From positions 1 to 64,000 of the forward strand of contig NZ_SPQR01000015.1 in NCBI RefSeq assembly GCF_004766055.1: a stretch of 64,000 nt of DNA, written 5' to 3'. Positions 7,272 through 16,081 of this stretch are shown here, piece by piece. Positions within the stretch are counted from its first letter, which is position 1; the number at the start of each line of letters is the position of its first letter. Position numbers and translations under genes: made by a program. The notes below the pieces were generated by a model. The model was not told the origin of the DNA, did no database searches, and saw nothing but the letters and a program-made list of their open reading frames with translations. The stretch comes from Desulfosporosinus sp. Sb-LF. GTDB lineage: Bacteria > Bacillota > Desulfitobacteriia > Desulfitobacteriales > Desulfitobacteriaceae.

Positions 7272-9707
7272 CTAGGAATCCACTACTCTCCTATAGGAAC
7301 GTTGCCGTCCATAAATTTCGAAGCGAATCGCCACCTCATTTCGCTCCCAACCCTCGGCCTTATCTAGAATGCCCCGAATTTCACGTGACTGAGTGTTGGA
7401 TAGCTGTTTAGGATCTCCGCCAAAGCACTCACACCAAACCTCCATGGCACAGACCCTGCTGCGCTTACGCGTACCCTTATCCCCATTAAAATCACTCGCC
7501 AAAAACATCCGCCTGCCACTGAGGTCCAAGCTCTCCCAATTCTTCGGCAGCAGGGTTCCCAGATACTCATACACGATACCCGCTTTGTCGCTTTCCTCGG
7601 TATGCTCCGCCTGGACGGTCTTAGCTAACTCCGCCAGCGTGTCCTTGAGGTATAGTTCCTCTCCAGATTTATACGCCTGCACAGCTTCAGCCCAGATCTG
7701 ATCCACGTTCAAATCCTGCCATAGACTTTGTTGGCCCCGGCCCACGTTCACGGGCCAAAACCGTCGGTTCCCGGTTCGATCGCGCAAACACTCCTTGTCG
7801 TTCGTAGTACCAACGAAAACACACTGGCGAGGAAAGGCCACTGTCCGCCGCCCGTAGGCCTCCCGGAAAATGTCCTCTTGCTTAGAGATAAAGTGCTTTA
7901 ACGCCTCAATGTCCGCCTTCTTAGCCGCTGAAAGCTCGGCCATTTCCACGATCCATGCTCCCTGCAGTTGCTCAAAGGCCTCCTTCCCCACGACGGTCGT
8001 TAAACTATCTGAGTACCATTTACTGCCGAGTCTGTTCAAGAGATAGCTCTTGCCTAGTCCCTGATCTCCCACTAAGAGGAGCATATAGTCAAATTTACAG
8101 CCCGGGTCATAGACTCTTGCCACTGCTGCCGCAAGAGTTTTCCTGATCACCGCTCTGGTATAGGGGGTATCCTCTGCGCCAAAATAGTCGATAAGCAACC
8201 GATCCAGGCGCTCAACACCGTCCCACTGGAGATTTCTTAAATAGTCTTTAACTGGATGATAACGGTTCTGCTCCATCACCACAGCTAAAGCGTCCATTGT
8301 TTTGCCGACATGGCTTAGGCCATAGATATGCTCTAAATAATGTCGGATCGAGGCGTCATCTGTATCCGTCCAGCACACGCCTCGATCTAGACCACGCCAC
8401 GCTAAATCCCTTAAGAGTTCATTGTGATGGGCAAACTCGTTATACCCCACAGCCTTCCGGAGCAGGGGGTCGTTTTCCAAAATCAGCCGAATGTTATCAA
8501 TCGTGGCGGCCAGGGTGCCGTCTTTTCTATAGGTGAGTCCTTCAGCCCAACGACGATCAGACGATGATGAAGCAGTCGCTGCAGAGCTGGTCCAGGAGGT
8601 GGGCGACGTCGGAGAATCTATGGCCGCCGTTGCTTCCGATGCTCCCGGTGCTCCCAATGGAAATTTCCGCGCCGATGCTGCCAAGCGTTCTTCAGCAAGT
8701 TGGCGTTTGACTCGGACATCCTGTACGACTAATTCTTGCATGGCCAGATAGGATGGACGTTGACTCATTGCTTTACGTTCCTCGACATCTTGGTCGAGCT
8801 CACCAAACTTTTGCAGGCGCACGATATCAAAGGCGTTAAACAACCTGCCACAGGCTGGATCCGTGGCATGATGGGAATAGGCATAGAGATCGTCATAAAT
8901 TACCACTCCTGCTGTACTGTCCGCCGGGCTATAGCTGTAGCGATTGGACAGTGAACAAGGGGTGTAAACATCCGCTAGAAACGTCTCGATCGCATCACGG
9001 ATGTTGTAGGCTCTGCAAAAACTGCCGACGAGACCTTCTTTACGGGTGGGATCGACTTGCTTATCCCGAGTTGTTTGAATGATCCTCTGCTGCCTTGAGG
9101 AAATCGGCCATTCCGAGGTGTCCTGCCAAGATTGGTAGCTGGCCAGGACCTCATCCGGATTCAGCAAGGGTCCTGCTTGGCTTTGGAAGATATACTCACC
9201 ATCCGACGAGGTACTCGGCCAGTACATCAGCCGAGAGGCTTCATAGGTGGTGTCATCAAACTGCTCAATTCCAATATCCTCAGCCACTTTGCGAGCGATC
9301 GCTTGATATTCGTCCTCGGACACGCCTCTGACTAACGGAATGATGAGTCTAAGTCTGGGTGCCTCAGGTAGGTGTTTATGCGTGGAATAGAGACAACAGG
9401 TGTAATCGCAAAATAGGGTGATAAAATCCCAAGCATCCACCTGCGCGTAGTCCATATCTAGCGTGAGCATACTGCGATACTCCACTGACCCGCGTCGGCG
9501 TTTGCCCTTCCTTAACTTTCCTCCAACAAATCCCCCAACATCCTTAATCTCGTCTTGCTTTCCTTTCATGAACGTTCTATACTCAGCCACCGTTTCGCTC
9601 GTCCGGTGGGTTGTTTTCACCTTATCCATAAACTTGGTCCAACTCAGCTCAATATTCTTCCACTGTTTCTCTTTTCTGCTCTTACCCATCGCAATCGTGA
9701 ACTTCAT
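7272..9707 (-). CDS. VapE-type phage/plasmid primase-helicase
   Basis: An 811-aa replication protein of the virulence-associated E type. The N-terminal third has a primase-like domain with a metal-binding LDMDYAQ (about residue 80) and HKHLPEAPRLRLIIPL. The C-terminal half is a P4-type superfamily 3 helicase: Walker A VGDQGLGKSYL (about 550), Walker B IVEMAEL (about 590), and sensor VFVGTTNDKECLRDRTGNRR. The start is ATG 9707, with AAGGA upstream; it begins one base after the stop of the DUF2922 gene, so the two are translationally coupled. It primes and unwinds DNA of a phage, satellite or plasmid. The frame is full length, so the enzyme may be active although the lysis gene is broken. The GGAACA array follows it. 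Confidence 0.9.
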   Translation of the reverse strand: MKFTIAMGKSRKEKQWKNIELSWTKFMDKVKTTHRTSETVAEYRTFMKGKQDEIKDVGGFVGGKLRKGKRRRGSVEYRSMLTLDMDYAQVDAWDFITLFCDYTCCLYSTHKHLPEAPRLRLIIPLVRGVSEDEYQAIARKVAEDIGIEQFDDTTYEASRLMYWPSTSSDGEYIFQSQAGPLLNPDEVLASYQSWQDTSEWPISSRQQRIIQTTRDKQVDPTRKEGLVGSFCRAYNIRDAIETFLADVYTPCSLSNRYSYSPADSTAGVVIYDDLYAYSHHATDPACGRLFNAFDIVRLQKFGELDQDVEERKAMSQRPSYLAMQELVVQDVRVKRQLAEERLAASARKFPLGAPGASEATAAIDSPTSPTSWTSSAATASSSSDRRWAEGLTYRKDGTLAATIDNIRLILENDPLLRKAVGYNEFAHHNELLRDLAWRGLDRGVCWTDTDDASIRHYLEHIYGLSHVGKTMDALAVVMEQNRYHPVKDYLRNLQWDGVERLDRLLIDYFGAEDTPYTRAVIRKTLAAAVARVYDPGCKFDYMLLLVGDQGLGKSYLLNRLGSKWYSDSLTTVVGKEAFEQLQGAWIVEMAELSAAKKADIEALKHFISKQEDIFREAYGRRTVAFPRQCVFVGTTNDKECLRDRTGNRRFWPVNVGRGQQSLWQDLNVDQIWAEAVQAYKSGEELYLKDTLAELAKTVQAEHTEESDKAGIVYEYLGTLLPKNWESLDLSGRRMFLASDFNGDKGTRKRSRVCAMEVWCECFGGDPKQLSNTQSREIRGILDKAEGWERNEVAIRFEIYGRQRSYRRVVDS

Positions 9708-9708
9708 C

Positions 9709-9924
9709 TCATCCGTCCTTTCTGTAAAACCCTGCCTCAAATCCTTCCGCGATGAGTGCACCACCGGATGTCAAGAAGATATTCTTGGCGATCATCTGAT
9801 CCATCACGGCTTCGATCTGAACCGTTGTCAGATCCACTTTAGGTTCTGGCAGTGTGAAGCTTACTGCATTTCCAAGGGCATTGTTAAACGTCATGCGTAA
9901 GACTTTTTTACTAATAGTAGGCAT
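9709..9924 (-). CDS. DUF2922 family small protein
   Basis: A 71-aa protein with the DUF2922 pattern (KKVLRMTFNNALGNAVSFTL, then MIAKNIFLTSGGAL). The start is ATG 9924 (MPTISKKV) with AAAGGAGG at a good distance; a longer frame from 9957 would swallow that ribosome site. DUF2922 genes are typically paired with DUF1659 genes in Firmicutes phages, plasmids and chromosomes; the biochemical role is not known to me. Here it is the middle gene of a DUF1659-DUF2922-VapE operon, one base before the primase-helicase. Confidence 0.85.
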   Translation of the reverse strand: MPTISKKVLRMTFNNALGNAVSFTLPEPKVDLTTVQIEAVMDQMIAKNIFLTSGGALIAEGFEAGFYRKDG

Positions 9925-10090
9925 GGTTTTTCCTCCTTTCCCTACGGCCCTCCACAAATGGAGACGTTCATCCGTTCGATGTTCGATTACCTCTCCTTGC
10001 TTCTTGACCCTTTAGTTTTTTGTTTTCGAGTGAAGGTCGACTAGCCTTCAGAAAGGTTTGACTAACCCACAACTTTTCTCTTTCTCTTGA

Positions 10091-10312
10091 TTACTCTGCG
10101 AGGTCAAAACGGTTGTCGCGACGTACTCCGATGAGTGGATAATCTTGAAGTCTATATAGGGCATTGGCCACATCATACAAATCTTGGTCGAGGGCGTCAG
10201 ACTTTACATTTGCAAAGCTGCGCTGACTAAGCTTTGGAGAGCCTTCCGGAGTTAAACCCGTTTGGAAGGTTACCACCATCACGGTGTCTTTGGCACTAGA
10301 AATGACAGCCAT
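10091..10312 (-). CDS. DUF1659 family small protein
   Basis: A 73-aa protein with DUF1659 features (MAVISSAKDTVMVVTF, then SQRSFANVKSDALDQDLYDV). The start is ATG 10312 with GGAGGTG 9 nt upstream; an ATG-like extension at 10321 would overlap this site. It is the first gene of the operon with DUF2922 and the primase-helicase. Its function is unknown. A leader of about 160 nt precedes it, with a LexA-type box at the promoter, two hairpins including a terminator, and a second LexA-type box. Confidence 0.82.
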   Translation of the reverse strand: MAVISSAKDTVMVVTFQTGLTPEGSPKLSQRSFANVKSDALDQDLYDVANALYRLQDYPLIGVRRDNRFDLAE

Positions 10313-10347
10313 CTCGTTCACCTCCTTTCCCTATGTTCGATACTTAT

Positions 10348-10359
10348 GAACCAACGTTC
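10348..10359. promoter_or_regulatory. Second LexA-type box (GAACCAACGTTC)
   Basis: A perfect GAAC-N4-GTTC, the core of the Gram-positive LexA/DinR site. It lies between the leader terminator and the DUF1659 start. A weak promoter TTGTTC-N16-TAAGTA on the minus strand overlaps it. Confidence 0.5.
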
Positions 10360-10362
10360 GCA

Positions 10363-10395
10363 GAACAAAAAGCAGCCGGCTCCTGCCGACTGCTT
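10363..10395 (-). terminator. Terminator hairpin inside the leader of the DUF1659-VapE operon
   Basis: On the minus strand AGCAGTCGGC pairs with GCCGGCTGCT, followed by TTTTTGTT, before the first gene. Its place between promoter and operon suggests attenuation. An upstream hairpin (GGATCTCT 10415-10422 with AGAGATCC 10431-10438) could be part of the switch. Confidence 0.75.
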
Positions 10396-10459
10396 TGGTA
10401 GAGAAGGAATTCATGGATCTCTGGGCAGGTAGAGATCCCACGGACCACCCCCTGCACGA

Positions 10460-10508
10460 GAACGCTTGTTCTGTATTTAGTATACTTGACCCGTAATAAA
10501 TCTGTCAA
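10460..10508 (-). promoter_or_regulatory. Promoter with LexA-type SOS box at the start site
   Basis: Minus strand: -35 TTGACA (10503-10508), an 18-bp spacer and -10 TATACT (10479-10484). Immediately downstream lies GAAC-N4-GTTC (10460-10471), matching the Gram-positive LexA/DinR core. LexA bound here would block initiation, so DNA damage should induce the operon. Confidence 0.75.
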
Positions 10509-10655
10509 TGGATCCGGGAAAGATCAGTCATGAAATCACACCAGTGAAAAAATGACTCGCACCAGAAGATTTCAATTCCACAAAAGCATTACAGCGACTC
10601 GAATTATATGCTACACTTAAAAAATCCTATTTAGATCAAATGAGAGGTGCTATCA

Positions 10656-11936
10656 ATGATACGACCAGATGCAGAACAATTACTAAAAGAATTTTCAGCA
10701 ACGGCATATCCACGTCAAGTGACAGAAATCATTCCCGGCGTCATATATCATGTTATGGGCTATGGCCACAGCAATGCGAGCTTTATCATTGGGGAAACTT
10801 CGGTCATACTGATCGATACCCTTGATACCGACTATCGCGGCGAAGCCCTCAAGGCCATTATCGCCAGGCATACCGACAAGCCAGTCAAGACCATCATCTA
10901 CACCCATGGCCACCCAGATCACCGTGGTGGCGCTGGTGTTTTTATGGACAGTGAGCCGGAAATCATTGCCTTTGCTCCTTGCAAGCCAGTCCTCGGGCGA
11001 ATGAATGCCCTGGAGGACGTGCTCAATCAGCGTGGCGTCAGACAATTTGGCTACGAGCTCAGCAACGAAGAAGCCATTTCCCAAGGCATCGGCATTCGTG
11101 AAGGCATAGTTCAAGGCGAGGGTCAAAGGACTTTTGTGCCACCAACCACTGTTTATAGTGAGGCAAAAATCGCACGCGATATTGATGGCATCACTCTAGA
11201 GATTGCTGCTGCTCCAGGCGAAGCTGAAGATCAGCTACTCATCTGGCTGCCAGCGCAAAAGGCACTTTGCTGTGGTGATAATTACTATGGTTGCTGGCCC
11301 AATCTATATGCCATCCGAGGCGGTCAGTATCGAGATATCAGCACCTGGGTAGACACCTTGGACAAACTGATTGCTTATCAGGCTAATTATCTCCTCCCAG
11401 GTCATACCCACCCCATCATCGGTGAAACCGCTGTTGCAGAAACCTTAACCAATTTTCGTGATGCTATTGATTATGTTTTCACAGAAACCCTTAAAGGCTT
11501 GAATCAGGGCCTGACCATGGATGAGGTGACAGAAGCCGTCAAGCTGCCTGAAAAGTGGGCCAGCCTTCCCTATCTGGGCGAATTTTATGGCACTGTTGCC
11601 TGGTCTGTTCGTGGCATATATGCCGGCTATGTAGGTTGGTTTGATGGTAATCCAACCAACCTCAATCCACTGCCAATTCGAAACCGTGCTGAAAAAACCA
11701 TCGCTCTTATGGGTGGCACAGAGTCTGTCCTTTCTGCCATCAGCCAAGCCCTAGACAACAAAGACGCTCAATGGGCTATTGAGCTTGCAGATATCCTTAT
11801 CGCCGCAGATAGTACCAATAAAGAGGCAAAACAATACAAAGCGCAAGGCCTCATAAGCCTCGGCCACCTGGAAACAAGTGCTAACGGCCGTCACTACTAC
11901 CTCGCCTACGCCAAGGAACTGCTCACTGATTTGTAA
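10656..11936 (+). CDS. Alkylsulfatase-like metallo-beta-lactamase hydrolase
   Basis: A 426-aa protein of the linear alkylsulfatase type (BDS1/SdsA1-like). The MBL domain has THGHPDH (about residue 88), a later Asp in CCGDNYY and His in LPGHTHP; the C-terminal part carries the dimerization-domain signature YVGWFDGNPTNLNPLP. It ends soon after, lacking the SCP2-like domain that gives classical alkylsulfatases about 650 residues. The start is ATG 10656 with GAGAGGTG upstream; a GTG at 10647 is less likely. It may release sulfate from alkyl sulfates or act on a related ester. No sulfonate or sulfate genes are adjacent, so the substrate is open. Confidence 0.85.
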   Translation: MIRPDAEQLLKEFSATAYPRQVTEIIPGVIYHVMGYGHSNASFIIGETSVILIDTLDTDYRGEALKAIIARHTDKPVKTIIYTHGHPDHRGGAGVFMDSEPEIIAFAPCKPVLGRMNALEDVLNQRGVRQFGYELSNEEAISQGIGIREGIVQGEGQRTFVPPTTVYSEAKIARDIDGITLEIAAAPGEAEDQLLIWLPAQKALCCGDNYYGCWPNLYAIRGGQYRDISTWVDTLDKLIAYQANYLLPGHTHPIIGETAVAETLTNFRDAIDYVFTETLKGLNQGLTMDEVTEAVKLPEKWASLPYLGEFYGTVAWSVRGIYAGYVGWFDGNPTNLNPLPIRNRAEKTIALMGGTESVLSAISQALDNKDAQWAIELADILIAADSTNKEAKQYKAQGLISLGHLETSANGRHYYLAYAKELLTDL

Positions 11937-12101
11937 CACTATTGAGTTGTTAGACAATATATTGCGAGTAAAGAACTTCTATATGGGACTTGATGGACGA
12001 ATATTATGCTAAAACCTTAAACCCTTACCCCTAGAACCTGCGACCTCCAAAGTTGATTTTTACAACTTTTGCGAGCCCTTCAAAACTACTCATGATCGTT
12101 G

Positions 12102-12147
12102 AAAAGAAACAGCATGTCATTTTTCCGAATGACATGCTGTTTCTTTC
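12102..12147. terminator. Bidirectional terminator hairpin
   Basis: A 17-bp perfect stem: AAGAAACAGCATGTCAT (12104-12120) faces ATGACATGCTGTTTCTT (12129-12145), with an A/T-rich edge on both sides. It separates the convergent alkylsulfatase-like and EamA genes. The rest of 11937-12307 holds nothing recognisable. Confidence 0.75.
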
Positions 12148-12307
12148 ATCTAGTAAACGAAGATAAGTAATGTAGTTGTTGACGTTTCCTCGAGTGAATA
12201 GCCCTATGGCTCCACAATTTCCAAACCGTCCGTTGTGATAATAAAGAATAAAGTACACTTCCCGGGAACTTGTTGAGAATTATATCGCAAACGCTTGGGT
12301 AATAAAC

Positions 12308-13207
12308 CTAGGCAATCATCTTGATTGAAGGTTTCGACAACTGGACTAATAAAACCCCGCCTAAAATAACGATCGCAGAAATGAACACTTTCGGCGAGAC
12401 TGGCTCGCCTAGAATCACGGCGCCTAAGATCACTCCGACAACAGGATTCACGTAAGCATAGGTACCGGCTTTTGATGCCGACCATTTTTGTAAGATATAG
12501 ATATAGGAACTGTAACCAAGGATCGATCCAAAAAGGATTAAATAAACCAGTGCACCAAGACCTTTACTGGTCAGATGAATATGACCAGCCTCCCCCATCA
12601 AGACCCCAACTAGTGTCAATCCAATTCCTCCAGCAAACATTTGTACACCAATATTGGCCACCATTGTTCCGGATGGCTTAAATGTCTTCGAATAGACGGA
12701 GCCCAGTGACCACGAAAACGCCGCCAGCAATAGTAATAGTCCGCCTGAAACATCCATTGCTTTAGTTTCAGAACCCGTCAATAACAAAAGAGCAACCCCG
12801 AAGAACCCCAAAAGTAAACCAAGCCACCCCTTCAAGCCAATCCTTGGACCATTAGGCAGGAATCGTTCTAGAATCGCATTGAACAGTGGGACAATCGCAA
12901 AAAGAAGTGCCGTGACACCAGAAAAAACCCATTGTTCCGCCCAAACTACAAGCCCGTTGCCACCCAACAGTAAAAACAAACCAACGATTGCCTGTCTCCG
13001 TACATCTGTGAAATTTCCGGGGAACTTGTACCCTTTATAATAAGCGTATGACAACACCAAAGACCCTGCAATCAGGAACCTTATCCCGGCAAATAATATT
13101 GGCGGGAAGTCACTTACTCCAATTCGAATCGCCAGATATGTTGACCCCCATAGGATACAAACCGCTATGTATGCCAGAATTACCTTCGTCTCTTCTCTTT
13201 TTGCCAT
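12308..13207 (-). CDS. EamA-domain (DMT superfamily) exporter
   Basis: A 299-aa ten-helix transporter with two EamA repeats. The first starts YIAVCILWGSTYLAIRIGV; the second covers residues about 160-290 and ends in NPVVGVILGAVILGEPVSP, the usual EamA C-terminal motif. It resembles YedA/RhaT-like metabolite exporters. The start is ATG 13207 behind GGGAGAGAG. Single gene; nothing nearby identifies the substrate. Confidence 0.88.
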   Translation of the reverse strand: MAKREETKVILAYIAVCILWGSTYLAIRIGVSDFPPILFAGIRFLIAGSLVLSYAYYKGYKFPGNFTDVRRQAIVGLFLLLGGNGLVVWAEQWVFSGVTALLFAIVPLFNAILERFLPNGPRIGLKGWLGLLLGFFGVALLLLTGSETKAMDVSGGLLLLLAAFSWSLGSVYSKTFKPSGTMVANIGVQMFAGGIGLTLVGVLMGEAGHIHLTSKGLGALVYLILFGSILGYSSYIYILQKWSASKAGTYAYVNPVVGVILGAVILGEPVSPKVFISAIVILGGVLLVQLSKPSIKMIA

Positions 13208-13320
13208 AACACATCTCTCTCCCTAATTTTACAACGCACACTTGGCCTTCTGATTACGAGCAGAAGCGATGACGTTGCTTGTCTCCCTCTTTCGATTAAC
13301 TTCGTCATAATTATAGCATA

Positions 13321-13346
13321 AACGAGCACTCTGAAGAGTGCTCGTT
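13321..13346. promoter_or_regulatory. 12-bp perfect inverted repeat
   Basis: AACGAGCACTCT and AGAGTGCTCGTT are separated by 2 bp, between the divergent EamA and flavodoxin-fold genes. With so short a centre and no T-run it looks more like an operator than a terminator. Confidence 0.45.
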
Positions 13347-13498
13347 TGTCAAGATGAAATGGCGAGTTCCATCTGCCTGGCGGATAAAAGACCTTTTGCC
13401 ACCTATATGTACGTATTTGTATATTTGTTCCTTACTAGTATAATGTTATTGTCCTTTAAATTAAATTTAAAAATAATTATTAGGAGAATGATATTTCT

Positions 13499-14143
13499 AT
13501 GAAAGTAATTGCTATCAATGGGAGCCCGAGAAAAAATTGGAATACCGATACCCTATTGCAAGAAGCGCTTGATGGAGCTAAATCTGTGGGAGCGCAAACG
13601 GAAGTTATACATTTATATGACTTGAATTTCAAAGGTTGTATCAGCTGCTTTGCCTGCAAGAGGAAGAATTCTAAGCATGCTGGACACTGTGCTATGAAGG
13701 ATGACCTGACAAGTGTCCTTGATAAAATTTTGGAATCTGATGTTCTCCTGCTGGGTTCGCCCATCTATTTTGGCAATATTACCGGTTTAATGCGTTCCTT
13801 TTTAGAACGTTTGCTATTCTCAAATCTTTCCTATAATGAAGGTCATCCCTCCATTTTCCAAGGTAAGCTATCCTCAGGTTTCATCTACACGATGAACGTT
13901 CCTGAGGAGTTTATCCAAAAAGTCAACTACGAAGCCTTATTTGAGCAAAACAAAAATTTGCTGCAAAGACTAAAGGGAACCTCTGAATTTATGATTTCCA
14001 CTGATACCTACCAGTTTGAAGATTACTCTAAGTATGAAGCATCTATGTTCGACGAAAAACACAAGTCCCAAGTAAAAGCTGAACAATTCCCAATCGATCG
14101 TCAGAAAGCCTTTGATATGGGTGTAAGACTGGCAAGCCTCTAA
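13499..14143 (+). CDS. Flavodoxin-fold NAD(P)H-dependent oxidoreductase
   Basis: A 214-aa member of the NADPH-dependent FMN reductase / iron-sulfur flavoprotein group. The N-terminus AINGSPRKNWNTDTLL is the FMN phosphate loop; CISCFACKRKN and a later Cys in GHCAMKDD resemble the compact Cys cluster of iron-sulfur flavoproteins, and GSPIYFGNITG is the second flavin loop. The start is ATG 13499 with AGGAGA 11 nt upstream. It probably shuttles electrons in the cytoplasm. A related enzyme with similar motifs is at 25825. Confidence 0.85.
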   Translation: MKVIAINGSPRKNWNTDTLLQEALDGAKSVGAQTEVIHLYDLNFKGCISCFACKRKNSKHAGHCAMKDDLTSVLDKILESDVLLLGSPIYFGNITGLMRSFLERLLFSNLSYNEGHPSIFQGKLSSGFIYTMNVPEEFIQKVNYEALFEQNKNLLQRLKGTSEFMISTDTYQFEDYSKYEASMFDEKHKSQVKAEQFPIDRQKAFDMGVRLASL

Positions 14144-14267
14144 AGTAAGCAGTATCCTTTGTCAATGAATCTATCCCCTTCACTAGGGTTCCATTATCCT
14201 CACAGGCATAGTATCCTCATTATCATGTCTTTCTTTCGCCCACCCATTTATTTAAATCCTCAGGTCA

Positions 14268-14849
14268 TCATTGTTTCCTGAGCCAACCAACAGGCTTCGA
14301 ACTTGTGCCGATAAAGTAATGATGGTTTTTTACAATAAGCGCAAATACTTGTCGAGAATTCTTTCTATTCTGTTGGATTACTTCAACTGTGTCTGGTGTT
14401 ACTTTGGTCACGATTGCCACGTGTCCATACGGTGGATTTGTGAATACTAAGATATCATCTGGCTTCGGTTTTTCTGTTCCTTCGTTTTTATACTGTACTA
14501 AGCCTCTTTGCTGATTTAAGCCCCCTTGAGGCACGGATGGGTCAAAAAAATCTTTAGCATCACCAAATCCGTTAGGCATTCTATGCTGTTTTGCGACATA
14601 ATAAAATCGCTTTACATATTCTACGCACTGCCATTTGAGTCCGTAATAGTATCCATCGTAGCTGAAGGTTTCCCTTTTTTCGTTGGTATGATCTAGGTTG
14701 TTATAATAAACAGGAACACTTCTATAGCTATCCATTATTTTTCCTGGAGAAGGTTCTATTAAAGGAGTTCGGAAGAAAAAGTGTAACCCTATACCTAAGC
14801 TCAATAAAAAAATGCTAAGCAATAAGAATTTATAAACTTTTTCGTTCAT
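14268..14849 (-). CDS. Membrane-anchored CHAP-domain amidase/peptidase
   Basis: A 193-aa protein with one N-terminal membrane helix (about residues 7-25) and then a CHAP domain on the outside. The catalytic Cys lies in LKWQCVEYVKRFYY, the His in YGHVAIVTKV, and a polar third residue in VIQQNRKNS. CHAP enzymes cut cell-wall peptide bonds or glutathionylspermidine-like amides. The start is ATG 14849 after AGGTGATC. A peptidoglycan role is the simplest reading; the Cys-Val-Glu-Tyr context also fits the amidase half of glutathionylspermidine synthetase. Confidence 0.82.
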   Translation of the reverse strand: MNEKVYKFLLLSIFLLSLGIGLHFFFRTPLIEPSPGKIMDSYRSVPVYYNNLDHTNEKRETFSYDGYYYGLKWQCVEYVKRFYYVAKQHRMPNGFGDAKDFFDPSVPQGGLNQQRGLVQYKNEGTEKPKPDDILVFTNPPYGHVAIVTKVTPDTVEVIQQNRKNSRQVFALIVKNHHYFIGTSSKPVGWLRKQ

Positions 14850-14983
14850 GACAAGATCACCTACCTAGAATATAAGGTCTAAATAATACTACTCACTTAT
14901 GAAGTTTGGCATTCCTGTCCCGACAGTAAATGGCCCCAATTATTCCTAGTTTGTCAGCAAATTGGACTATGCGAGAAAATAAA

Positions 14984-15018
14984 AGAAGCGAATACCCTCT
15001 ACATGAGAATTCGCTTCT
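14984..15018 (-). terminator. Terminator of the 27-codon gene
   Basis: AGAAGCGAAT and ATTCGCTTCT form a 10-bp stem followed on the minus strand by TTTATTTTC, about 30 nt after the stop codon of the small frame at 15049. Confidence 0.7.
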
Positions 15019-15048
15019 AGCGCACTGATGATGGTTTAGTTTTCGCGC

Positions 15049-15132
15049 TTAATCATCGGCTGCGGAGTATAAAGGTTCTAGCCCTACTTCAACCAGAATC
15101 GCGTCAATAATATATTTTTCTTGTGCAGTCAT
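15049..15132 (-). CDS. Small 27-aa protein of unknown function
   Basis: The frame reads MTAQEKYIIDAI then LVEVGLEPLYSAADD. It has AAAGGA 6 nt before the ATG and a good terminator about 30 nt after the stop, which together make it likelier than chance. It is acidic, with no membrane helix. I do not recognise a family. It stands alone between the CHAP protein and the DsrE pair. Confidence 0.5.
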   Translation of the reverse strand: MTAQEKYIIDAILVEVGLEPLYSAADD

Positions 15133-15256
15133 ACTTATCCTTTCTACCTCTTTTTGAGGGTTATATCCACTTCATATTATGATCTACATTATTGTAACCG
15201 AAGATAGGGTTACAGATAAAGCAAAAGGTTTGTCATAATATGGTAATTAATTGTAT

Positions 15257-15295
15257 AAAGGCCGGTCCAGGCGCTCCAAACGCCCGACCGGCCTT
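15257..15295. terminator. Strong hairpin terminator after the DsrE pair
   Basis: AAAGGCCGGTC (15257-15267) pairs with GACCGGCCTTT (15285-15295), with an inner GGCG/CGCC stem. It is downstream of the minus-strand dsrE-like gene and may work in both directions. Confidence 0.75.
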
Positions 15296-15428
15296 TAATC
15301 TTTTCTAAATTCCCTTAACTATGTATCAAATCCAGCATTACCGATACCCTTGTTTGAATGTGCTCCATCTGATATATCCTCTCTACATTCTGGCGATTTG
15401 ACTCTTCCGCCCTGAAATTTAAAGGTTG

Positions 15429-15776
15429 TCAGACAGTTATTACTCTTACGTTTTCGTCTTTCAAAAAATCGGTAAGTACTTTACCCGTATATATTACGGA
15501 GATTCCCATATTCGCCAACACTTCAGAAACTCCGTAACTATCTGCACAGGCTTTGCAGGCTAATAGTTCCACTCCTGCACCTTTCATTGTTTCGATATAT
15601 TCCTGCAACGTCATATCTTCCGCTAGAAGTTTAGCCGAAGGCCCCCAAACGATCAGAGATACTTCATTCCACCATTCCTTAAGTTTTGAATTTAGCGTAT
15701 ACATGAATGCCATACGAATAGCAACTTCCCTGTCTGCGTTAGTCCAAACCACTACCAATTTATTTGGCTGACTCAA
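15429..15776 (-). CDS. DsrE/DsrF-like family protein
   Basis: A 115-aa single-domain DsrE-like fold: VVVWTNADREVAIRMAFMYT at the N-terminus and VELLACKACADSYGV around residue 75, where the Cys of ACKAC could carry persulfide. DsrE-type proteins relay sulfur or bind small ligands. The start is TTG 15776 with GGGGAGGC upstream. It follows a small hypothetical gene on the same strand by about 110 bp. A sulfur-carrier role fits the DsrE/TusA fusion at 35635 but is an inference. Confidence 0.82.
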   Translation of the reverse strand: MSQPNKLVVVWTNADREVAIRMAFMYTLNSKLKEWWNEVSLIVWGPSAKLLAEDMTLQEYIETMKGAGVELLACKACADSYGVSEVLANMGISVIYTGKVLTDFLKDENVRVITV

Positions 15777-15886
15777 ATTACAAGCCTCCCCATTTTTCTT
15801 CTCCTAATATTAACCTGTGCCATTTCTCCTTTTCCGATTATGCATCGTGCTTGACCCGAAGATATGCTCAATGCGAGTGTTTAGTA

Positions 15887-16081
15887 CTACTTGCATGTTA
15901 AACCTCTTTGATTTAGCAATTCCAGCATTTTGTGCTCGCCAAGTTCGTGTTCGAGCAGAAACATATCCCGATCATTGCAAATCTTAGGGATATGACGCAT
16001 TGCATTGATTATAATCGCCTGAGCTTCGATGGCTTCCTCGTGAGTGTCACACGCAACATAATCACTATATACCTTAATCAT
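15887..16081 (-). CDS. Hypothetical 64-aa protein
   Basis: Begins MIKVYSDYVACDTHEEAIEA and has a clear AAGGAG 9 nt before the ATG. It is acidic and His/Cys-containing (two Cys in the N-terminal half, one at the C-terminus), with no membrane segment. The family is unknown to me. It lies upstream of the DsrE gene on the same strand and may be co-transcribed with it, ending at the hairpin at 15257. Confidence 0.65.
   Translation of the reverse strand: MIKVYSDYVACDTHEEAIEAQAIIINAMRHIPKICNDRDMFLLEHELGEHKMLELLNQRGLTCK

Follow-up and report, generated by a model that had tools for sequence, protein, structure and literature searches.

In riboswitches, T-boxes and ribosomal-protein leaders, the first gene is preceded by a structured domain and then an intrinsic terminator. 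Bacillus mRNAs can be stabilized by 5′-terminal stem-loops, for example in the aprE leader. Firmicutes LexA/SOS promoters carry GAAC-N4-GTTC at the start of a sigma-A-type promoter, and PMC4234289 gives GAACN4GTTC as the SOS box of B. subtilis. A literature search found no paper joining LexA/SOS with leader-RNA attenuation, a terminator and read-through.

The leader described here lies in a 64,000-nt stretch of Desulfosporosinus sp. Sb-LF (contig NZ_SPQR01000015.1, positions 1 to 64,000; the window) and shares something with each of these systems. It has the GAAC-N4-GTTC box at the start of a sigma-A-type promoter, but the transcribed operator is a strand of a conserved RNA stem, and six of 15 copies keep the stem without an exact box. 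As in attenuating leaders, a structured domain and an intrinsic terminator precede the first gene; unlike in those leaders, no conserved antiterminator or ligand core was found, no Rfam family matches, and the closing stem is able to form only after read-through. As in the aprE leader, a stem begins at the first transcribed nucleotides, but here a terminator and a possible pseudoknot lie within the stem, and stabilization is a proposal. We read the leader as a structured transcription attenuator of an SOS-type operon, combining control of initiation by LexA, a terminator hairpin (P3), a gate made of a second hairpin and a pseudoknot (P2/pseudoknot) and a cap made by the closing stem (P0). Taken as a whole, this reading is an even call; its established part is the conserved structure, the strand, the place at the predicted start and the terminator-type hairpin. 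The features are as follows.

10526..10542, minus strand: upstream motif GGTGTGATTTCATGACT (consensus GGTGTGATTTCATTACC), 68-72 nt ahead of the RNA start in 15 copies
10503..10508, minus strand: -35 element TTGACA, from a promoter scan of the window
10479..10484, minus strand: -10 element TATACT, its final base 7 nt ahead of the RNA start
10460..10471, minus strand: putative LexA operator GAACAAGCGTTC at the predicted transcription start
10458..10471, minus strand: 5′ strand of the closing stem P0, partner of 10361-10348
10451..10457, minus strand: GTGCAGG, candidate pseudoknot partner of the P2 loop (the other 14 copies read GGGCAGG; the window has a U-C mismatch)
10431..10444, minus strand: 5′ strand of P2, with changes on both sides in 7 of 14 pairs
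10423..10429, minus strand: P2 loop CCTGCCC, from the alignment of copies
10410..10422, minus strand: 3′ strand of P2, from alignment and covariation
10369..10396, minus strand: P3, intrinsic-terminator hairpin AAAGCAGTCGGCAGGAGCCGGCTGCTTT, with 12 pairs in the window and followed by U-rich 10368-10363 (TTGTTC)
10348..10361, minus strand: 3′ strand of P0, from comparison of 15 copies, including the apparent second LexA box GAACGTTGGTTC (10359-10348)
10321..10330, minus strand: Shine-Dalgarno region GGAAAGGAGG, from the sequence

Occurrence of the leader

The leader was first recognized in the upstream regions of 31 DUF1659 loci, and 11 copies were aligned. With a covariance model, 13 of the 73 genomes of the order yield 15 strong copies, which score 71 to 135 bits. 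These copies fall in four of 22 genera, all within the family of the window, and two of them are in the window's own genome. The order holds 25 covariance hits, ten of which are weak and are left out of all counts; including the weak hits raises the number of matching genomes to 20 of 73 (E up to 0.01). By eye, several of the weak hits (among them L045/L156, L049/L154 and L051/L155) look like decayed leaders and others like ordinary terminators. L154 lacks P2 and the pseudoknot, and L155 and L156 lack the 5′ part, while P3 and the 3′ side of P0 are kept. Across the phylum, 3 of 398 genomes match, two of them already known and one weak (L104, left out). With strict filters, 48 candidates per genome were scored in the order and 8 in the phylum, so that weak copies may be missed.

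A leader-like DNA pattern has 27 matches, 11 of which hold DUF1659 (nine Desulfosporosinus, one Peptococcaceae, one Bacillota). The other 16, from other phyla and lacking DUF1659, were treated as chance, and viral contigs gave no match to the pattern. Two leaders of another family, L014 and L143, have by eye P0, a P2-like hairpin whose loop contains CTTGCCCG or CCTGCCCG, and a terminator hairpin that differs in sequence.

Rfam gave no hit at the gathering threshold in the window and, with the cutoff relaxed to E 5, a single hit in 9000-12000 that looks like chance and lies outside the leader. Six relatives gave five sub-threshold hits, one of which (a microRNA precursor family, E 5) lies partly over the L053 leader. 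A known Rfam leader was therefore rejected, as no curated covariance model matches, in agreement with the first-pass annotation, which knew of no named leader RNA for this gene set.

Promoter, start site and the first box

The promoter that the first-pass annotation had reported is present on the minus strand at 10508-10479 and is near-consensus. TTGACA (10508-10503), 18 nt and TATACT (10484-10479) give 11 of 12 promoter matches, the top score among 16 promoter-like sites in 9000-16000. All 15 copies have TATACT or TAAACT ending 7 nt upstream of P0, 11 of them scored by script and four (L035, L036, L044 and L053) read manually because the script had chosen another hexamer there. Transcripts should therefore begin at P0.

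The first base of GAACAAGCGTTC is 7 nt past the -10 hexamer, and the claim of a GAAC-N4-GTTC box at the predicted start (10471-10460) holds. The box is exact in nine of 15 copies, and the identical nine have TTGACA at -35; in the six copies without an exact box, -35 is GTGACA in five and GTGTCA in one (L042, by eye), an association counted over 15 copies regardless of relatedness. In these six, the upstream strand is GGACAAACATTC or GGACAAGGGTTC. Two exact GAAC-N4-GTTC sites occur in the 64 kb, against 0.80 ± 0.85 expected, and 19 of 100 shuffles have at least two. The pair is thus unremarkable by number; position and conservation make the boxes meaningful. All nine genomes searched have lexA, and GAACATTTGTTT is present in five of the eight lexA regions read, which are all five of the window's genus, its own genome included. 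The lexA region of G046 has GAACAAACGTTC besides GAACATTTGTTT. The lexA promoters of relatives therefore bear GAAC-N4-GTTT/C sites of the same type as the first box of the leader, which looks like a true, if putative, LexA operator.

The 17-nt motif GGTGTGATTTCATTACC has a best match of 10 to 17 of 17 positions per copy over the 15 copies. It is possibly the site of a regulator, perhaps the neighboring XRE protein. The motif is present in copies with and without the LexA box.

Conserved structure and the second box

The leader (10472-10322) is more stable than shuffled sequence, with a z of -2.7 and 2 of 200 shuffles equal. The copies share an architecture of P0 (14 pairs), the GGGCAGG segment, P2 (14 pairs) and P3 (11 pairs). 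Over 15 copies, 94.4% of cells are paired versus 90.5 ± 0.4 in shuffles (0 of 500 equal). Changes on both sides affect 14 pairs and 31 cells versus 5.8 and 7.7 in shuffles (0 of 500 equal). The covariation score is reached by 0 of 500 shuffles and the number of pair types by 1 of 500, while slid controls are 37-49% paired. Pairs with double changes number seven in P2, five in P0, two in P3 and none in the pseudoknot helix. These counts come from alignment A2, which was fitted to the covariance model and so leans the pair counts; MAFFT alignment A1 gave the same picture. G-U accounts for 58 cells and A-C for 14 in P0, P2 and P3, as expected if the minus-strand transcript is the strand that folds. 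Comparative sequence analysis thus supports a conserved leader structure well. The first-pass annotation had named the lack of such a structure in related loci as grounds for abandoning its reading; the covariance search found 15 strong copies. Both hairpins that it had placed before the first gene are real, and the second is of terminator type, but both belong to a larger fold, which also has a closing stem and possibly a pseudoknot.

The pseudoknot helix is paired in 99% of cells in alignment A2, yet it is nearly invariant, so covariation within the family gives no proof of a pseudoknot; complementarity indicates that the two segments can pair. RNAalifold, which is unable to draw pseudoknots, picked the GGGCAGG-CCTGCCC helix in place of P2, and the two helices may therefore be alternatives.

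A second GAAC-N4-GTTC about 100 bp downstream had also been reported, and an exact site does exist at 10359-10348. Its interpretation as a second LexA operator was rejected. The exact sequence GAACGTTGGTTC occurs in one of 15 copies, that of the window. In the other copies the segment is the complement of the 5′ strand of P0, and in the six with GGACAAACATTC or GGACAAGGGTTC upstream the downstream strand co-varies and retains most pairs. The second box is therefore best read, from the alignment, as an RNA strand, the 3′ side of the 14-bp P0, in which the window copy has one mismatch.

These data bear on two readings in which DNA rather than RNA is the functional form. The first, that of the original annotation, assumes a pair of LexA operators followed by an ordinary terminator, without any specific RNA fold. 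It accounts for the two exact boxes in the window and is in keeping with the sites at relatives' lexA promoters, but it does not explain why the downstream segment complements the upstream strand even in the copies that have no exact box. We consider it most improbable, and its second operator is largely refuted. The second reading holds that palindromes at +1 (GGACA..TGTCC or GAAC..GTTC) are DNA operators and that RNA pairing is a by-product. Compact start palindromes in short leaders such as L134 and L124 are what it predicts; strands about 50 to 100 nt apart that still pair, in L138, L016, L023 and the 15 full leaders, are not, and neither is an excess of G-U over A-C confined to one strand. 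We consider this second reading very unlikely.

Terminator and read-through

The second hairpin, described by the first-pass annotation as a full terminator, is of the intrinsic type (10396-10369, then TTGTTC). A GC-rich hairpin with a U-tract thus lies ahead of the first gene, which is the arrangement of an intrinsic-terminator attenuator. The tail CTGCTTTT follows P3 in 13 of 15 copies, and the U-tract is poor in L039 and L042. The P3 segment GGCAG is present in all 15, so that P3 is conserved beyond pairing. By eye, two relatives (L046 and L048) have a hairpin of almost identical sequence after the stop codon of a rubredoxin-like gene.

No conserved antiterminator was found in the leader, and inspection by eye revealed no helix that overlaps P3. 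An alternative nested helix of GGGCAGGG with CCCUUCCC, which does not overlap P3, is strong in six of 15 copies (at most 19 of 500 shuffles equal) and at chance level in the window (373 of 500 shuffles) and in L039, L040 and L042. It is not supported as a conserved alternative; Fisher's combined value is 76 on 30 degrees of freedom, but the copies are related and the window fails. Kissing between the P2 loop and P3 is not supported as a general feature, as P3 of L143 lacks GGCAG.

In the attenuator reading, LexA at +1 would repress the strong promoter in the nine copies with an intact box, and the operator, once transcribed, would be the 5′ strand of P0. RNA polymerase would next make P2, and the P2 loop could pair with GGGCAGG further upstream. 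P3 would then end some transcripts at about 107 nt, and P2 and the pseudoknot may gate it. Read-through RNA would gain the 3′ strand of P0, which would pair with the very 5′ end and close the domain ahead of the ribosome-binding site. P0 may in this way shield the 5′ end of the read-through mRNA from decay. Because P0 forms after the terminator, it cannot itself decide termination. Induction by DNA damage and a second signal that overcomes the terminator, both proposed in the first-pass annotation, would be candidate parts of this control.

Predicted pairing of the first 12 nt, with nested folding only, is 0.57-0.99 in full-length RNA with the 3′ strand of P0 and 0.39-0.75 in terminated RNA. 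In the terminated RNA of LexA-type copies the 5′ end is predicted mainly in a 4-bp hairpin, and predicted pairing in L053 is higher when terminated. Since 5′-end pairing persists in terminated RNA, these predictions leave protection of the 5′ end by P0 only modestly supported.

The same figures suit a different idea, in which the functional product is the terminated RNA itself (about 107 nt), acting as an SOS-induced small RNA, and DUF1659 expression is read-through. The 5′ end of such an RNA, predicted to be less paired when the 3′ strand of P0 is missing, could pair in trans with that strand in its own or paralogous mRNAs. A terminator-type hairpin, a conserved body and the two copies in the window's genome would fit as well. 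Against a small RNA, 14 of 15 copies precede DUF1659 and one an amidase gene, as for a cis element, and the 3′ strand of P0 is conserved though absent from the terminated RNA. We consider a small RNA unlikely.

Associated genes

The genes downstream of the leader in the window are listed below.

10091..10312, minus strand: DUF1659 gene (PF07872, Pfam 6.8e-23)
9709..9924, minus strand: DUF2922 gene with its C-terminal end replaced (PF11148 positions 1-53 of 69, 1.1e-17)
7272..9707, minus strand: VapE-like phage primase/helicase gene behind the truncated DUF2922 gene (PF05272, 2.4e-83; phrog_256)

Pfam confirms all three genes of the DUF1659-DUF2922-VapE operon named in the first-pass annotation, but VapE is peculiar to the window among the loci read, and the three genes were rejected as a conserved unit. 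BLASTP found no relative of VapE in 20 other loci, of which 4 of the 19 with DUF1659 extend less than 1.6 kb beyond that gene. In the DUF2922 protein of the window, the last 22 residues (present in L057, the other copy in the same genome) are replaced by 14 unrelated ones. Judged from these sequences, the VapE linkage is a local rearrangement. Because the window copy combines a rearranged operon with mismatches in the pseudoknot and P0, it may be decaying. VapE-like, XRE and truncated Amidase_2/endolysin-like genes at 9707-6417 (minus strand) resemble a prophage remnant joined to the cassette.

DUF1659 is present in 72 of 100 genomes searched (the window's own included), in up to nine copies each; the 4.27-Mb genome of the window has two. 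Of the window and the 20 other loci, 20 contain DUF1659, and 19 of these contain DUF2922. L060 is the DUF1659 locus without DUF2922, and its contig stops 23 bases past DUF1659. The leader is next to DUF1659 in 14 of 15 copies, and the L053/L070 copy lies directly before an amidase gene, without DUF1659. Pfam places Amidase_2 behind the leader in L057, L062, L066 and L070 and YvrJ in L062 and L068. An order of XRE-leader-DUF1659-DUF2922-YvrJ (short, probably membrane)-Amidase_2 recurs in L057, L062, L066 and L068, and in L062 YvrJ and the amidase are fused in one frame. This could be a lysis-like unit.

Tblastn against phage records gave no match for DUF2922 and one weak match for DUF1659 (MT838210, 37% identity), with no viral contig. 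PHROGs does contain families with weak matches to them (phrog_20302, 4.9e-05, and phrog_21372, 2.8e-11, for DUF1659/DUF2922). A phage home for these genes is conceivable but not supported. As BLASTP shows no similarity between DUF1659 and DUF2922, a common origin is not claimed. A literature search found one paper that names DUF1659 (PMC2955703) and none that names DUF2922.

The gene neighborhood raises the possibility of feedback, in which the leader would bind DUF1659, DUF2922 or the neighboring XRE protein, as ribosomal-protein leaders do. The leader is found together with the small genes, an XRE gene is present in 10 of 15 leader-bearing stretches (downstream in the window), and binding would give P3 a cause for conservation that exceeds pairing, with GGCAG in every copy. 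The predicted DUF1659 model, of low confidence (pLDDT 64), has insignificant PDB matches only, the best (E 0.08) among ribosomal proteins, and L053/L070 retains the RNA in the absence of DUF1659. With both facts against it, feedback is doubtful.

Other DUF1659 leaders and implications

Part of the architecture may extend beyond the family. Predicted pairing of the first ten nucleotides averages 0.65 over 38 other DUF1659 leaders versus 0.40 in shuffles, in a test biased by the choice of starts by eye at GGACA/GAAC. At most 3 of 60 shuffles are as high in 19 of the 38, and L121, L123, L147 and L148 do no better than their own shuffles. The 38 comprise 32 of 40 fetched stretches and 6 of the 31 earlier loci; the eight stretches dropped were one duplicate, one near-duplicate and others without a start nameable by eye or a DUF1659 hit. 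Given this excess of predicted pairing, a 5′-terminal stem seems widespread; in some lineages its loop would carry the pseudoknot-terminator domain as an insertion.

AC-N16/17-CATAnnnTA, which we take to resemble a sporulation sigma-K promoter, occurs within 50 nt upstream in 12 of the 38 leaders (L152, L121, L150, L122, L120, L130, L153, L145, L127, L137, L128 and L142) versus 0.09 expected from shuffles. Copies of one cassette under SOS-type and under mother-cell-type promoters would agree with PMC2955703, which clusters DUF1659 with sporulation domains.

A more ambitious reading, which is tentative and in our judgment rather unlikely, is that the LexA operator, once transcribed, joins the RNA that regulates the operon. 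The P2 loop CCUGCCC would be contested by two copies of GGCAG: pairing with the 5′-side copy would form the pseudoknot and leave the terminator intact, and pairing with the copy in P3 would open it. As P0 would cap read-through transcripts only, escape from the terminator and mRNA stability would be coupled. If this is true, the 5′-terminal stem, which has a very different sequence in many other DUF1659 leaders, would be the ancestral core of a leader class that is placed under SOS-type or sporulation-type promoters.

The leader is a defined RNA element, open to testing, for a gene set of unknown function. It suggests how one operator could serve both in the DNA and in the transcript, and it warns that an apparent second ‘operator’ downstream of a palindromic first one may belong to an RNA stem. 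The YvrJ and amidase genes that accompany the leader are a hint of some regulated function at the cell wall, under SOS-type control in some copies.
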